Origin: Modestobacter italicus
Lineage (GTDB): Bacteria > Actinomycetota > Actinomycetes > Mycobacteriales > Geodermatophilaceae
DNA length: 64,000 nucleotides
Direction: 5' to 3'
Assembly: GCF_000306785.1 (NCBI RefSeq)
Contig: NC_017955.1
Span: 3,224,001 to 3,288,000 of the forward strand
The translations under genes and the position numbers were made by a program. Under the pieces are notes generated by a model, which did no database searches, was not told the origin of the DNA, and worked only from the letters and a program-made list of their open reading frames with translations. This document shows positions 3,695 to 9,131 of the stretch, piece after piece. Numbering within the stretch: position 1 is the stretch's first letter; every line of letters starts with the position of its first letter.

Positions 3695-4021
3695 TCAGAG
3701 CTCGACGACGAGGTCGCCGTCCTCATCGCGGACGGCGAAGAGACGGACCGGGGCGGCGCCGCTGGTGGAGGCGCCGTCGGTCCAGCGGTAGGCGAACAGG
3801 TGCATCGGGCAGACCAGCACGTTCGCGTCGGTCTGCCCGTCGGCCAGCGGGCCGCCGGCGTGCGGGCAGCTGGCCTGGGTGGCGTGCAGCGACCCGTCGC
3901 GCAGCCGGAACACCGCCACCGGGACGTCGCCGGCGACGAACGCGCGGCCCTCGCCGGGCGGCACCTCCTCGACCCGGCCGACGACGAAGGCCCGGGTGGT
4001 CGTCTGCTGCACCACGCTCAT
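3695..4021 (-). CDS. nirD: Nitrite reductase (NAD(P)H) small subunit
   Basis: A 108-residue Rieske-type subunit of assimilatory nitrite reductase. The [2Fe-2S] ligands are present as CPHAGG and CPMHLFAYRW, the C-x-H ... C-x2-H pattern. It starts at ATG 4021, overlapping the nirB stop by four bases (ATGA), so it is translated as part of the nasA-nirB-nirD unit. With NirB it passes electrons for the six-electron reduction of nitrite to ammonium in the cytoplasm. Length is normal for the family. It is the last gene of the cluster and ends just before the tandem palindromes. Confidence 0.96.
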   Translation of the reverse strand: MSVVQQTTTRAFVVGRVEEVPPGEGRAFVAGDVPVAVFRLRDGSLHATQASCPHAGGPLADGQTDANVLVCPMHLFAYRWTDGASTSGAAPVRLFAVRDEDGDLVVEL

Positions 4022-6558
4022 CGGACCGGCACCTTCGGCAGGTCGACCAGCGGCAGCGCGGTGCGGAACTGGCCGGGGGTGGCCGGCTGCCGTCCGTCCT
4101 GACCCCACGGGTCGGTGTAGGCGTCGATCGAGCGCTGCATGCCCTCGTCGAGCTCGGCGAGGATGCCCTCGCTGTCCTCCAGCAGCACCTGCTTGATCTT
4201 CTCCAGGCCGACTCGAGGCACGAAGTCGTAGGTGCGCTCGAGCCAGTTGGCGTTCTCCCGGTAGTACTGCAGGAAACGGCCGGTCAGCTCGATCACCGCG
4301 GCCGGGGAGTCGACCGTGGCCAGCAGGTCGCCCTTGCGGATGGTGGCCCCGGCAGCGCCGCCGACGTAGACCTCCCACTTGCCGTTGCCGACCGCGACGA
4401 CGCCGACGTCCTTGACGTAGGCCTCCGCGCAGTTGCGCGGGCACCCCACGACGGCGAGCTTCATCTTCGCCGGGCTCTCGATGCCCTGGAACCGGGTCTC
4501 CAGGTCGATGCCCAGCTGGGTGGAGTCGCCCAGGCCGAACCGGCAGAAGTCCGTGCCGACGCAGGTCTTCACGGTGCGGAAGCTCTTGCCGTAGGCGTAC
4601 CCGGAGGGCATGCCCAGGTCGTCCCACATCGCCGGCAGGTCCTCCTTGCGGACGCCGAGCAGGTCGATCCGCTGGCCGCCGGTGATCTTGACCATCGGCA
4701 CCTCGTACTTCTCCGCGACGTCGGCGATCCGGCGCAGCTGCGCGGGCGTGGTCACCCCGCCCTTGATCTGCGGGACGACGGAGAAGGTGCCGTCGCGCTG
4801 GATGTTGCCGTGCACCCGGTCGTTGATGAACTTGGCGTCGTTCTCCTGCACGTAGTCGGCGCCCCAGATCATCCGCAGCAGCGAGGTGAGGCCCATCTTC
4901 GACTTCGCGTCCTCGGCGCCACCGGGGGCGAGCGCGGCGAAGACGGCGGAGACGCTGAGCAGGCCCTGTTCGCGGATGGCGGCCATCAGCGCCGGCTTGG
5001 CCAGCGGGATGCCGGGCACGTACCAGGACTCGGTGGGGTCCTCGACGACGTCGCCGTCCGCGGCCCACTCGACGATCTGCTTGACCAGGCCCTTGCACGA
5101 CCCGCAGCCCTTGCCGGCCCGGGTGCGGTCCATGACCCCGCCGACGGTGGTGCACCCGCCGGCCACGGTGTCGCAGATGGCCTGCTTGGACACGCCGTTG
5201 CAGTTGCACACCTGCGAGTCGCCGGGCAGCTCGGCGACACCGACCTCCGCCGCGCCGTCGGACAGGTCGACGAGCAGCTTGATCCGTTCCTGCGGCAGCG
5301 GCGTGCCCCGGTCGAAGGCCTGGGTGAGGAAGGCGACCTTGCGGGTGTCCCCGAGCAGGGTCGCGCCGATCAGCCGGTCGTCGCGGACGACGACGCTCAG
5401 GTGCACCCCGCGCCGGGGCTCGCTGATGACCAGGAACTCGTCGGTGTCCCGCTCGGGCCGGTTGACGCCCATGGTGGCCACGTCGACCCCGGCGACCTTG
5501 AGCTTGGTCGCCGTCCGGGAGCCGTGGTACTCGGCGTCCGGGTCGGTGCCGGTGAGCAGGTCGGCGAGCACCCGCGCCTGCTCCCACACCGGCGCGACCA
5601 GCCCGTAGACCTCGCCCCGGTGCTGCGCGCACTCCCCCACCGCGTAGACGTCGGGGTCGTCGGTGCGCAGCTGGTCGTCGACGACGACGCCGCGCTCGAC
5701 CTCGATGCCGCTCATCAGCGCGACCTCGGTGACCGGCCGGATGCCGGCGGCGACGACCAGCATGTCGGCGTCGACGGCCCGGCCGTCGGCGAGGACGACG
5801 CCGCGCACCCGGTCGGGCCCGATCACCTCGGTGGTGCGGGTGGCCAGGTGGACGACGATGCCCAGCGCCTCGACCGACTGCCGGAGGATGGCGCCGCCGT
5901 CGGGGTCCAGCTGCTGGTTCATCAGGTGGGTGCCGGCGTGGACCACCTCGACCTGCAGCCCGTGGCCCTGCAGCGCGCGGGCCGCCTCCAGGCCGAGCAG
6001 CCCGCCGCCGACGACGACGGCCTTCTCGTGCTCGGCGGCCGCCGCGAGCATCGCCCGGGTGTCGTCGATGGTCCGGAACCCGAACACGCCCGGGAGGAGC
6101 TCCTCCTCGGCCCGGTACAGCCCGGTCATCGGCGGGATGAACGAGCGGCTGCCGGTGGCCAGCACCAGCTGGTCGTAGGGGGTGCTCGTCCCGTCCGAGG
6201 CGTGCACCACCTTGGCGTGGGTGTCGATCCGCTGGACCCGCACCCCGGCGCGCAGCTGCACGCCGTTGTCGGCGTACCAGTCGTGGCTGTTGAGGACGAT
6301 GTCGTCCTCGTGCTCCTCGCCGGCCAGCACGTGGCTGAGCATGATCCGGTTGTAGTTGCCGTGCGGCTCCTCGCCGAAGACGGTGATCGCGAACTGCTCG
6401 CCGCCGCCGCGCTCGAGCACCTCCTCGACCACCCGGGCGCCGGCCATCCCGTTGCCCACCACGACCAGCCGCTGGCGGGTGTCGACGCCGTCCGCGTCGT
6501 CCATCGCGAAGTGCAGCGTGCTCACGCCCTCGGGGCGCCCGCCCAGGACCGCCGTCAT
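4018..6558 (-). CDS. nirB: Nitrite reductase (NAD(P)H) large subunit
   Basis: An 846-residue cytoplasmic enzyme reducing nitrite to ammonium. In order: FAD-binding VVVGNGMAG (about 32-40); NAD(P)-binding VVVGGGLLGLEAA (181-193); BFD-like [2Fe-2S] cysteines C451, C453, C485 and C488; and the siroheme/[4Fe-4S] ligands C666, C672, C706 and C710 in TCVGTDFC and GCPRNC. All key residues are present. The start overlaps the stop region of the upstream nitrate reductase gene and the stop overlaps nirD, so the three genes form one operon. A start about 18 codons further in (MDDADG) is possible. No nitrate transporter or siroheme synthase gene is nearby. Confidence 0.97.
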   Translation of the reverse strand: MTAVLGGRPEGVSTLHFAMDDADGVDTRQRLVVVGNGMAGARVVEEVLERGGGEQFAITVFGEEPHGNYNRIMLSHVLAGEEHEDDIVLNSHDWYADNGVQLRAGVRVQRIDTHAKVVHASDGTSTPYDQLVLATGSRSFIPPMTGLYRAEEELLPGVFGFRTIDDTRAMLAAAAEHEKAVVVGGGLLGLEAARALQGHGLQVEVVHAGTHLMNQQLDPDGGAILRQSVEALGIVVHLATRTTEVIGPDRVRGVVLADGRAVDADMLVVAAGIRPVTEVALMSGIEVERGVVVDDQLRTDDPDVYAVGECAQHRGEVYGLVAPVWEQARVLADLLTGTDPDAEYHGSRTATKLKVAGVDVATMGVNRPERDTDEFLVISEPRRGVHLSVVVRDDRLIGATLLGDTRKVAFLTQAFDRGTPLPQERIKLLVDLSDGAAEVGVAELPGDSQVCNCNGVSKQAICDTVAGGCTTVGGVMDRTRAGKGCGSCKGLVKQIVEWAADGDVVEDPTESWYVPGIPLAKPALMAAIREQGLLSVSAVFAALAPGGAEDAKSKMGLTSLLRMIWGADYVQENDAKFINDRVHGNIQRDGTFSVVPQIKGGVTTPAQLRRIADVAEKYEVPMVKITGGQRIDLLGVRKEDLPAMWDDLGMPSGYAYGKSFRTVKTCVGTDFCRFGLGDSTQLGIDLETRFQGIESPAKMKLAVVGCPRNCAEAYVKDVGVVAVGNGKWEVYVGGAAGATIRKGDLLATVDSPAAVIELTGRFLQYYRENANWLERTYDFVPRVGLEKIKQVLLEDSEGILAELDEGMQRSIDAYTDPWGQDGRQPATPGQFRTALPLVDLPKVPVR

Positions 6559-6905
6559 CAGACCTCCACCAGCCCGAGGTCGACGACGAGCTCACCGGTG
6601 ACGCCCACCGGGGCGGCGGCGTGCAGCTCGACGACCGTGCCGCCGTCGAGGTCCTCGACCACCCGCAGCGGCACGTGGCAGTCGCCCTTGGCGCCGATCG
6701 GGAACCAGCGCATCGGCTCGCCGTCCCGGACCAGCAGCAGGTAGACCAGCTCGTCGGTGGAGTTGCCGCCGCGGAAGTACAGCGCCTGCGCCGTCCGTCC
6801 CTCGGGGACCTGGTAGCGCAGCGCCGGGTCCAGCGGCCCGGGCTTGCCGAGCCCCTCGCCGGTGATCGGGTAGACGCCGTGCAGGAAGCGCGGGGTGCTC
6901 TTCAC
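6558..6905 (-). CDS. Alternative internal start: 115-residue nitrate-cluster protein inside the nasA frame
   Basis: Inside the nitrate reductase frame lies GTG at 6905, preceded by GGAGGAGGA (6914-6922) at an 8-base spacing. This is one of the strongest ribosome binding sites in the window. From here the frame encodes a compact 115-residue domain (PRFLHGVYPITGEG, LYFRGGNSTDELVYLLL, WFPIGAKGDCHVPLRVVED). Upstream, the nitrate reductase sequence has already reached its normal family end and passes through low-complexity linker. The simplest reading is a separate small gene whose upstream neighbour lost its stop codon, leaving both a fusion and a free form possible. Function unknown; its place between nitrate and nitrite reductase suggests a role in that pathway. 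Confidence 0.6.
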   Translation of the reverse strand: MKSTPRFLHGVYPITGEGLGKPGPLDPALRYQVPEGRTAQALYFRGGNSTDELVYLLLVRDGEPMRWFPIGAKGDCHVPLRVVEDLDGGTVVELHAAAPVGVTGELVVDLGLVEV

Positions 6906-9131
6906 GCGGGTGGTCCTCCTCCGTGTCGGGGGGTGCGGTGCAGGGGCGGACGGTCGTTCGTGGGCGCGCGGCTGCGGTTGGGTGGCGGGCACGGGAGCCG
7001 CGATGCGCTCCTCGGGCCCGCCGACGCGGGAGACGGCGACCGCGCAGACCTTGAAGGCCGGCATCCGGCTCGTCGGGTCCAGCGCGGGGTCGGTGAGCGC
7101 GTTGGCGCTGGACCCGCCGCCCCAGTGGAACGGGGCGAAGACGACGTCCGGCCGGACCGCGTCGGTGACCAGGGCGTGGAACCGGGCCCGGCCGCGCCGG
7201 GTGGCCAGCTCGACGACGTCGTCCGGGCCGACGCCCAGGCTCCGGGCCAGGTCGGGGTGCAGCTCGGCGCGCGGGGTCGGGGCGATGAGCTGCAGGCTGC
7301 GGGAGCGCCGGGTCTGGGTGCCGGACTGGTACTGCGCCAGCACCCGCCCGGTGGTGAGCACGTAGGGGTACTCGGCGTCGGGCTGCTCGTGCGCGTCGAC
7401 GTGCTCCACCCGCCAGAAGCGCGCCCGGCCGTCGGGGGTGGCGAACCGCTCGGTGAACAGCCGCGGCGTGCCCGGGTGGTCCGCCGAGGGGACCGGCCAG
7501 AACAGGCCCTGCTCGTCGTCCAGCCGCCGGTAGGTGATGCCCGAGTAGTCGGCGGTGCCCCCGGCGCTGGCCCGGCCGAGCTCGGTGAACACCGTCTCGG
7601 CGTCCCCGCTGAAGCCGGTGACCCCGAGCCGGCCGGCCAGCTCGGCGAGCAGCTGCAGGTCGTCGCGGACCCCGGTGGGCGGGTCCATCGCCTTGCGCCG
7701 GCGGATCACCCGGCCCTCGAGGTTGGTCATCGTGCCCTCCTCCTCCGCCCACATGGCGCTGGGCAGGACCACGTCGGCGAGCTCGGCGGTCTCGGAGAGG
7801 AAGAAGTCGCTGACGGCGAGGAAGTCGAGGTCGCGGAGGCGGCTGACCACCCGGCGGGCGTCGGGGGCGGAGACGGCGACGTTGCTGGCCAGCACCAGCA
7901 GCGTGCGGACGCCGCCCTCGGTGCCCAGGGCGTCGAGCAGCTCGAAGGCGCTGCGCCCGGGGCCGGGCAGGTCGTCGGGGTCGACGCCCCAGACGCCGGC
8001 GACGTGCGCGCGGGCGGCGGGGTCGGTGATCTTCCGGTAGCCGGGCAGCTGGTCGGCCTTCTGCCCGTGCTCCCGGCCGCCCTGCCCGTTGCCCTGCCCG
8101 GTGACGGTCGCCCAGCCGCTCCCCGCGCGGCCGGGCAGGCCCAGGGCGAGCGCCAGGTTGATCCAGGCCTGGGCGGTGTCGGTGCCGCTGCGGTGCTGCT
8201 CGGCGCCGCGGGCGGTGAGGACGATGGCGCGCCGGGCACGGGCCAGCGCGAGGACGATCCGGCGCTGCTGCTCGACCGGGACCCCGGTGAGCCGCTCCAC
8301 CCGGTCCGGCCAGTACCCGGCGACCCCGGCCCGGACGTCGGCGAACCCGGTGGTGCGCTCGGCGACGTAGGCCTCGTCGACCAGGCCCTCGGCCAGCGCG
8401 ATGTGCAGCAGCCCGTTGGCCAGCGCCAGGTCGGTGCCCGGCAGCGGCTGCACGTGCAGGCTCGCGTTCCGCGCGGTGCTCGTGCGCCGCGGGTCGATGA
8501 CGACGTGCTCGGCACCGCGCTCCCGGCCGGCGTCGAAGTACTGCATCGCCGGCGGCATGGTGTCCGCGGGGTTGCTGCCCACCAGGACGACGACGTCGGC
8601 CTCGGCGATGTCGGCGAGCGGGAAGGGCATCCCGCGGTCGAGGCCGAAGGCCCGGATGGCCGCGCCGGCGGCCGAGGACATGCAGAACCGGCCGTTGTAG
8701 TCGATGGCGCTGGTGCGCAGCGCGACCCGGGCGAACTTGCCGAACTGGTAGGCCTGCTCGTTGGTCAGCCCGCCGCCGCCGAAGCAGCCGACCGCGTCCC
8801 GCCCGTGCTCGCGCTGGGTGCGGGTGATCGCGGCGACCACCCGGTCCAGGGCGACGTCCCAGGTGGACTCGACCAGCGGGCTGGTGCGGTCGGCGGGGTC
8901 GGCGCGGACCAGCGGCCGGGTCAGCCGCTCGGGGTGGTCGAGCAGCTCGGGGGCGGACCAGCCCTTGGAGCACAGGCCCCCGCGGTTGGTCGGGAAGTCG
9001 GCCGGCACGAGGGTGGCCGGGCGGTCGCCGGCGGTCATGGTCACGCCGCACTGCAGCGAGCAGTAGGGGCAGTGCGTCTCGGTGGTGCGCGTGCCGGTGC
9101 CGGGGTGGGGCAACGACACAGCGGCGGACAC
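6558..9131 (-). CDS. nasA: Assimilatory nitrate reductase, molybdopterin type, fused in frame to a C-terminal small module
   Basis: An 857-residue frame. Residues 1 to about 715 are a molybdopterin oxidoreductase of the assimilatory nitrate reductase type. The N-terminal [4Fe-4S] ligands are C21, C24, C28 and C54 (CPYCSLQCG ... GGLCSKGW). The Mo-bis-MGD region includes GSNPADTMPPAMQYFDAGRE, and the usual family ending MPAFKVCAVAV is present. A Pro/Arg-rich linker follows, then a 115-residue module starting VKSTPRFLHGVYPITGEG. The GTG start is set by the first cysteine lying 21 codons in. The gene leads a nitrate-to-ammonium operon with nirB and nirD. Whether the product is one fused chain or two proteins is open. 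Confidence 0.92.
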   Translation of the reverse strand: MSAAVSLPHPGTGTRTTETHCPYCSLQCGVTMTAGDRPATLVPADFPTNRGGLCSKGWSAPELLDHPERLTRPLVRADPADRTSPLVESTWDVALDRVVAAITRTQREHGRDAVGCFGGGGLTNEQAYQFGKFARVALRTSAIDYNGRFCMSSAAGAAIRAFGLDRGMPFPLADIAEADVVVLVGSNPADTMPPAMQYFDAGRERGAEHVVIDPRRTSTARNASLHVQPLPGTDLALANGLLHIALAEGLVDEAYVAERTTGFADVRAGVAGYWPDRVERLTGVPVEQQRRIVLALARARRAIVLTARGAEQHRSGTDTAQAWINLALALGLPGRAGSGWATVTGQGNGQGGREHGQKADQLPGYRKITDPAARAHVAGVWGVDPDDLPGPGRSAFELLDALGTEGGVRTLLVLASNVAVSAPDARRVVSRLRDLDFLAVSDFFLSETAELADVVLPSAMWAEEEGTMTNLEGRVIRRRKAMDPPTGVRDDLQLLAELAGRLGVTGFSGDAETVFTELGRASAGGTADYSGITYRRLDDEQGLFWPVPSADHPGTPRLFTERFATPDGRARFWRVEHVDAHEQPDAEYPYVLTTGRVLAQYQSGTQTRRSRSLQLIAPTPRAELHPDLARSLGVGPDDVVELATRRGRARFHALVTDAVRPDVVFAPFHWGGGSSANALTDPALDPTSRMPAFKVCAVAVSRVGGPEERIAAPVPATQPQPRAHERPSAPAPHPPTRRRTTRVKSTPRFLHGVYPITGEGLGKPGPLDPALRYQVPEGRTAQALYFRGGNSTDELVYLLLVRDGEPMRWFPIGAKGDCHVPLRVVEDLDGGTVVELHAAAPVGVTGELVVDLGLVEV
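6914..6922 (-). promoter_or_regulatory. Strong internal Shine-Dalgarno for the small nitrate-cluster module
   Basis: The minus strand reads GGAGGAGGA, ending 8 bases before GTG at 6905. It sits within the linker-coding part of nasA, where a ribosome binding site has no purpose unless initiation occurs there. Confidence 0.65.

Follow-up and report, generated by a model that had tools for sequence, protein, structure and literature searches.

Comparison among relatives suggests that a single gene in the window (the whole stretch of 64,000 nucleotides that was analysed) gives rise to two in-frame proteins, a fusion of a NasC-like reductase, a linker and a small C-terminal module, and the same module in free form from an internal start codon, and we put the probability of this reading at about 0.8. 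Ribosomes starting at nasC would yield the NasC–linker–module fusion of about 90 kDa, which they must make because no stop codon precedes the module, and other ribosomes would start at an internal Shine–Dalgarno sequence and GTG 6905, giving a free module of 115 residues and about 12 kDa. From the conservation of this start we strongly infer that the free module is made by internal initiation. In relatives, the start of a separate module gene abuts, overlaps or closely follows the nasC stop, and the fused lineages would have joined both frames through the linker while keeping the start of the module. Positions of the features concerned are given in Table 1.

Table 1. Features of the fused frame and of its neighbours in the window
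Feature	Position	Strand	Remarks
Fused open frame: NasC-like molybdopterin oxidoreductase, linker and module, 857 aa	6558..9131	-	GTG start, stop-free inside
NasC-like part, residues 1-704: Fe4S4, molybdopterin and dinucleotide-binding domains	7020..9131	-	Pfam PF04879, PF00384, PF01568; residues 696-704 are the final model strand before the linker
Linker, residues 705-742, Pro/Arg/Ala/Thr-rich, predicted disordered	6906..7019	-	pLDDT <50 at residues 712-742
Internal Shine-Dalgarno sequence GGAGGAGGA	6914..6922	-	8 bases between it and GTG 6905
Internal start codon GTG of the module	6903..6905	-	GTG/ATG at 99/99 distinct fused genes
115-aa module (predicted jelly-roll domain) and stop codon	6558..6905	-	Free gene among other actinobacteria
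nirB, presumed nitrite reductase large subunit	4018..6558	-	ATG overlaps the module stop (TGATG)
Presumed nirD-like Rieske protein	3695..4021	-	Overlaps the nirB end

The sequence-only reading had the frame running past the reductase end (MPAFKVCAVAV) and through a Pro/Arg-rich stretch of about 45 residues into a module of 115 residues, and this description was borne out: all 857 codons are open, MPAFKVCAVAV (residue 700) lies near the end of the reductase, and the module begins 42 residues later, after a stretch rich in Pro, Arg and Ala. In Pfam and NCBIfam scans the first ~704 residues of the 857-aa frame showed the domain order of the NasC/formate dehydrogenase kind, with the Pfam Molydop_binding match ending at residue 697 and the match of the NCBIfam NasC model (NF047855) at residue 701. 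The identity of the reductase, previously given as nitrate reductase, was upheld only in part. NF047855 is still the best among the 27 models matching the frame, and the molybdopterin and Fe4S4 domains lie beside nirB and a nirD-like gene, which is the context looked for in an assimilatory nitrate reductase, but the score of 761 bits (profile positions 19–707 of 708) does not reach the curated cut-off of 1100. Since this equivalog cut-off was not passed, the name ‘nitrate reductase’ rests on the best match and on the adjacent nirB and nirD-like genes, both of which we take to be such from sequence features and position.

The module start was also found as claimed, GTG 6905 having its own Shine–Dalgarno sequence (GGAGGAGGA, read from 6922 to 6914) at an 8-base spacing. 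With a duplex energy of −11.8, this is by far the best of the four starts of the nasC–module/nirB/nirD set, the other values being −3.5 for nasC, −8.8 for nirB and −4.1 for nirD. The overlap of the module stop with the nirB start (TGATG) suggests translational coupling. The Shine–Dalgarno sequence of nirB sits within the last codons of the module (window 6558–6572).

The module was searched for in 112 genomes of the window's family, 298 of its order and 345 of its class, and with a profile in 396 genomes of the phylum, these sets overlapping one another; it was present in 81/112, 63/298, 29/345 and 12/396 genomes, respectively. Each of the 81 family genomes gave a single match, and because the module is single-copy in each of them, a free protein would have no other gene in the family to come from. 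An open upstream frame alone misleads in this DNA, hence a module was called fused only when an upstream tblastn match to nasC shared its frame without a stop; at two loci (L057 and L064) the long open frame upstream of the module is the wrong frame of nasC. On this definition all 80 assessable module genes of the family were fused to nasC in frame, the 81st genome (G066) being not assessable with a contig edge 33 codons upstream of the module and the frame still open there. Outside the family, fused genes were found at 9/9 modules of the family coded f4, at 6/6 of the Frankiaceae genus coded g141 (Pseudofrankia and Frankia nepalensis included), at the two Kineosporia loci, and in a single genome of f31 and another of f56, which makes 99 distinct fused genes in six groups (80 from the family and 19 others), although the genomes are related and counts across them are not independent. 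Two genomes (G462 and G651; loci L080, L082, L083 and L086) have two separate fused nasC–module loci each, and the internal ATG is kept in all four.

The prospect that the module would be a separate gene beside the nitrate reductase gene elsewhere was also realized, directly after nasC in other actinobacteria. A free module gene follows a nasC stop at 43 distinct loci, including those of Mycobacterium, Nocardia, Actinoplanes, Micromonospora, Lentzea and Motilibacter. At 34 of these loci the last base of the nasC stop falls no more than two bases before or four bases after the first residue of the module. The start of the free module coincides with the fused start residue at 18 of the 43 loci and lies upstream of it by one codon at 2 and by two codons at 23. 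A tree built from nasC, with 28 fused and 43 free genes among its 71 rows, which used 11 of the 80 family genes and from which the direction of change is not readable, holds at least four changes between fused and free, two of them forced by starred, well-supported branches. At one locus (L139, Candidatus Mycobacterium methanotrophicum), nasC, the free module and nirB are on a 282-kb plasmid, so that this gene set can be mobile; and at two Mycobacterium loci (L143 and L146) an in-frame stop falls within the nasC tblastn segment before the module, reflecting either a decayed gene or a gapped alignment.

Because stops are rare in this DNA, an open frame in one genome proves little, and a dinucleotide-shuffled family linker carries an in-frame stop in only some 9% of cases. 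The weight for a real fusion comes from the relatives, with open frames in 80/80 and NTG in 99/99. Over the family, linkers (P 27%, R 15%, A 12%) occur in 15 lengths, spanning 36 to 61 codons past NasC residue 702 and all in frame, and their 3341 codons contain no in-frame stop, where shuffles expect 7.2 and the other two frames contain 18. Genus members give dN/dS values of 0.45 in the linker, 0.22 in the module and 0.20 at the end of NasC. Third-position GC of the linker is 0.90, compared with 0.77 and 0.74. In an AlphaFold2 model of the fusion, confident domains flank a disordered stretch at residues 712–742. Judged by these signatures of the sequence, the linker is translated, and the fused frame is neither an error nor a product of chance. 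As to an assembly or sequencing error, i.e. a missing stop, it was refuted by the same open frame, which recurs in all 80 assessable genomes of the family and in five groups besides.

A translated linker could nevertheless be of no consequence if both products are made and only the free module matters, the NasC tail being a read-through tolerated after loss of the nasC stop. The free modules directly after nasC at 43 distinct loci and the quick divergence of the linker agree with such a history, but 15 linker lengths in the family imply at least 14 length changes, every one of them in frame, and neutral read-through predicts a stop or a frameshift somewhere among 80 genomes; we regard a merely tolerated tail as rather unlikely.

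Beside the fusion, the proposed free module depends on the internal start. All 99 distinct fused genes have NTG (76 GTG, 23 ATG) as the first codon of the module, while the highest NTG count at 30 other offsets within 15 codons is 11/99. GTC makes up 63% of Val codons in the family, and of 16 mostly-Val columns of the module, column 1 is the only one without GTC. Column 113 offers a positive control that was not planned for: it falls in the nirB Shine–Dalgarno sequence and has GTG in 79 of the 80 family genes and GTC in 1. The Val residue at position 1 is not itself needed, since a different residue occupies it at 25 of the 43 distinct free-adjacent loci, where the start lies one codon (2 loci) or two codons (23 loci) upstream.

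The Shine–Dalgarno sequence was compared with synonymous recodings of the same peptide, and in the family it was stronger in 80/80 cases (p ≤ 0.05), with a mean of −9.96 vs −2.61 kcal/mol for the recodings; it uses AGG, a rare codon (3.8% of Arg codons in the family). Among 21 members of the genus, the Shine–Dalgarno codons CGG AGG AGG show no base change, and pS is 0.000 for these codons, 0.409 for the rest of the linker and 0.226 for the module. Outside the family this comparison was significant in 0/19 fused ORFs, because linker peptides such as RKD or EEN force purine-rich codons. In f4, similar bases recur at the Shine–Dalgarno position although the residues differ (HRKD, NQKG, RTKD, TSKG, PEDN), a recurrence suggestive of a Shine–Dalgarno sequence that has been kept. 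Moreover, the folding energy of the start region in the family is −9.9 kcal/mol vs −16.2 kcal/mol in other linker windows, and four other comparable groups show weaker structure in the same direction; taken one by one against synonymous recodings, low structure was significant in only 20/80 family and 5/19 other ORFs, and in the two Kineosporia ORFs the start region was no less structured than their own recodings. Outside the family, the start codon and, less firmly, low structure carry the case for an internal start. Another in-frame NTG scores a stronger Shine–Dalgarno sequence in 51/80 family ORFs, and further stronger ones may exist because nasC is covered from near its start in only 34/80. 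Shine–Dalgarno strength alone would therefore not pick GTG 6905; conservation does, and by this measure the internal start is under selection. The idea of two products, raised in the sequence-only reading, has so far held: it is not the case that all relatives are fused without a conserved internal Shine–Dalgarno sequence, and in the family itself, fused in 80/80 assessable genomes, both this sequence and the start codon are conserved.

These observations bear on three ways in which the internal start might be dispensed with. If only the fusion were made, the internal Shine–Dalgarno sequence and start would be an unused relic of a once separate gene, and a relic is expected at first, as relatives carry a separate module gene with its own start. 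It should then decay, however, whereas the Shine–Dalgarno codons lack any synonymous difference in 21 genus members against a pS of 0.409 in the rest of the linker, and codon 1 is never GTC in 80 family genes and never departs from NTG in 99 fused genes, so that a relic appears improbable. We hold it to be just as improbable that the free module arises by cleavage of the fusion linker and not by internal initiation. The linker is long and predicted to be disordered, and a precedent is described in M. tuberculosis, where MoaX, a fused molybdopterin synthase, needs cleavage to work (PMC4326299), but cleavage leaves the conserved start codon, the Shine–Dalgarno sequence and the low structure unexplained. 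Less probable again is a role in pausing, in which the Shine–Dalgarno-like stretch, placed just before the domain boundary, would slow elongating ribosomes and let NasC fold before module synthesis; such pausing needs no start codon, yet NTG is kept in 99/99 genes and at the right distance. Internal initiation at GTG 6905 is thus the reading that we prefer for the origin of the free module.

The module is of no named family and represents an unnamed protein family found across several actinobacterial families. The window's copy had no match at E ≤ 1 in Pfam, NCBIfam or PHROGs, a profile of 22 members had no PDB sequence match at E ≤ 10, and a Pfam scan of 22 members gave one hit in one member (E 0.056). 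Its AlphaFold2 model is an all-beta sandwich with a pLDDT of 92.2, which in Foldseek matched C1q heads, cerebellins, the TNF-like BC2L-C domain, the Pgp3 C-domain, Ena spore-fibre subunits and phage tail-fibre proteins. TMq ranged from 0.37 to 0.64 at 7–19% identity in the best 50 PDB rows listed, with one PDB hit at E ≤ 0.001, and from 0.38 to 0.72 in the best 50 viral rows listed. The module is predicted from this model to be a C1q/TNF-like jelly roll, and many of the matched proteins are trimers or fibres. A NarM-like chaperone is another conceivable candidate for the module, on which the literature matches listed are silent.

Genomic association links the module to nirB. In the family, 83/112 genomes contain nirB, and 81 of them also contain the module, which is absent from all 29 genomes lacking nirB; the two nirB genomes without a module (G014 and G056) gave only a partial nirB match, and in G014 the nasC match stops at residue 630. 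Over all distinct module loci, nirB is downstream on the same strand in 181/200, within 150 bases in 180, and together with the co-occurrence in the family this supports the earlier suggestion that the module may be an accessory of nitrate assimilation. The 19 loci without a downstream nirB belong to Frankiaceae (14) and to remote relatives of family code f69 (5), and in 16 of the 19 genomes without an adjacent nirB a NirB relative of 40–48% identity is found elsewhere. The module precedes nirB at 30 distinct loci, most or all of them mycobacterial, where the nearest nasC relative (33–37% identity) is on the other strand, except at L190, where a nasC relative lies 1.9 kb upstream. Because these 30 loci keep nirB with no adjoining nasC, the module–nirB link looks tighter than the module–nasC link. 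In Frankia of the genus coded g113 (L087–L090, L092, L093, L095, L098 and L129–L133), the module stands alone with no nasC or nirB in the stretch covered, and a NirB relative of about 40–47% identity is found elsewhere in those genomes. In the window's genus, some genomes (G002, G005, G007 and G016–G019) have, besides the operon copy, a second NirB-like gene of 42–44% identity and no second module.

With a free module from the internal start and a fused one from nasC, the two forms may act together. We tentatively suggest that the module is an oligomeric jelly roll in which free and fused copies assemble, so that NasC would be tethered flexibly to an oligomer forming part of the nitrate/nitrite reductase machinery, nirB being the adjacent gene; the oligomer and scaffold steps are drawn from fold resemblance only, at moderate scores. 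By analogy with SpaO-L/SpaO-short and Cas11, the free module probably joins the fused module in a mixed oligomer, and that this oligomer keeps NasC near NirB is a guess. Somewhat more doubtful is a wider proposal from the same model, in which the jelly-roll module would serve actinobacterial nitrate/nitrite assimilation as an oligomeric scaffold so far unrecognised: the ratio of free to NasC-bound module would be set by internal initiation, one or a few reductases would be tethered, NirB would be held, and toxic nitrite would be passed on.

Genes organised with an internal in-frame start are already known, but to our knowledge no such start has been reported in a nitrate reductase. No title or abstract opening among the open-access literature matches listed describes this gene, an internal start in a nitrate reductase, or the module. 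If the reading given here is right, core nitrogen metabolism would offer here a clean and deeply conserved example of a single gene giving two products, the second of which a one-protein-per-frame annotation would miss. It also points to an unnamed actinobacterial family, mostly beside nirB, without an assigned function. A review of GlnR in actinomycetes names the nas genes of Amycolatopsis and NasN of M. smegmatis, and no such module appears in the parts of it that deal with them (PMC10704036).

Among known systems, the C1q/TNF-like jelly rolls (C1q heads, the BC2L-C N-domain, the Pgp3 C-domain and Ena2A/3A) are those that the module may resemble in its predicted fold; it differs in its low identity to them, with moderate TM-scores and no PDB sequence match at E ≤ 10. 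In gene organisation it resembles Cas11, a small protein that some related CRISPR–Cas systems encode separately. In types I-B, I-C and I-D, Cas11 is described as arising from an internal in-frame start in cas8/cas10, which gives a large subunit and a free C-terminal small protein, and this start was demonstrated with tagged protein, mass spectrometry and mutation of the start codon (PMC11899642). The nasC–module frame would likewise give a large protein together with its C-terminal part as a free small protein, but here the internal start rests on conservation, and the proteins are unrelated. In SpaO/SctQ of type III secretion, an internal start is reported to free a C-terminal domain, two free copies of which bind one long copy (PMC13059759); SpaO-L/SpaO-short is thus a model for the proposed mixed oligomer of free and fused module, although SpaO has the SPOA fold and belongs to a secretion machine, unlike the predicted jelly roll of the module. 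The nasC–module–nirB operons of Mycobacterium, Actinoplanes, Lentzea and Micromonospora have the same module and neighbours, with a start within two residues of the one described here, and differ in that nasC stops and there is no fusion. Since lineages thus differ, with the module apart in some and fused with its start kept in others, nature already supplies the comparison for why tethered and free copies would both be wanted.
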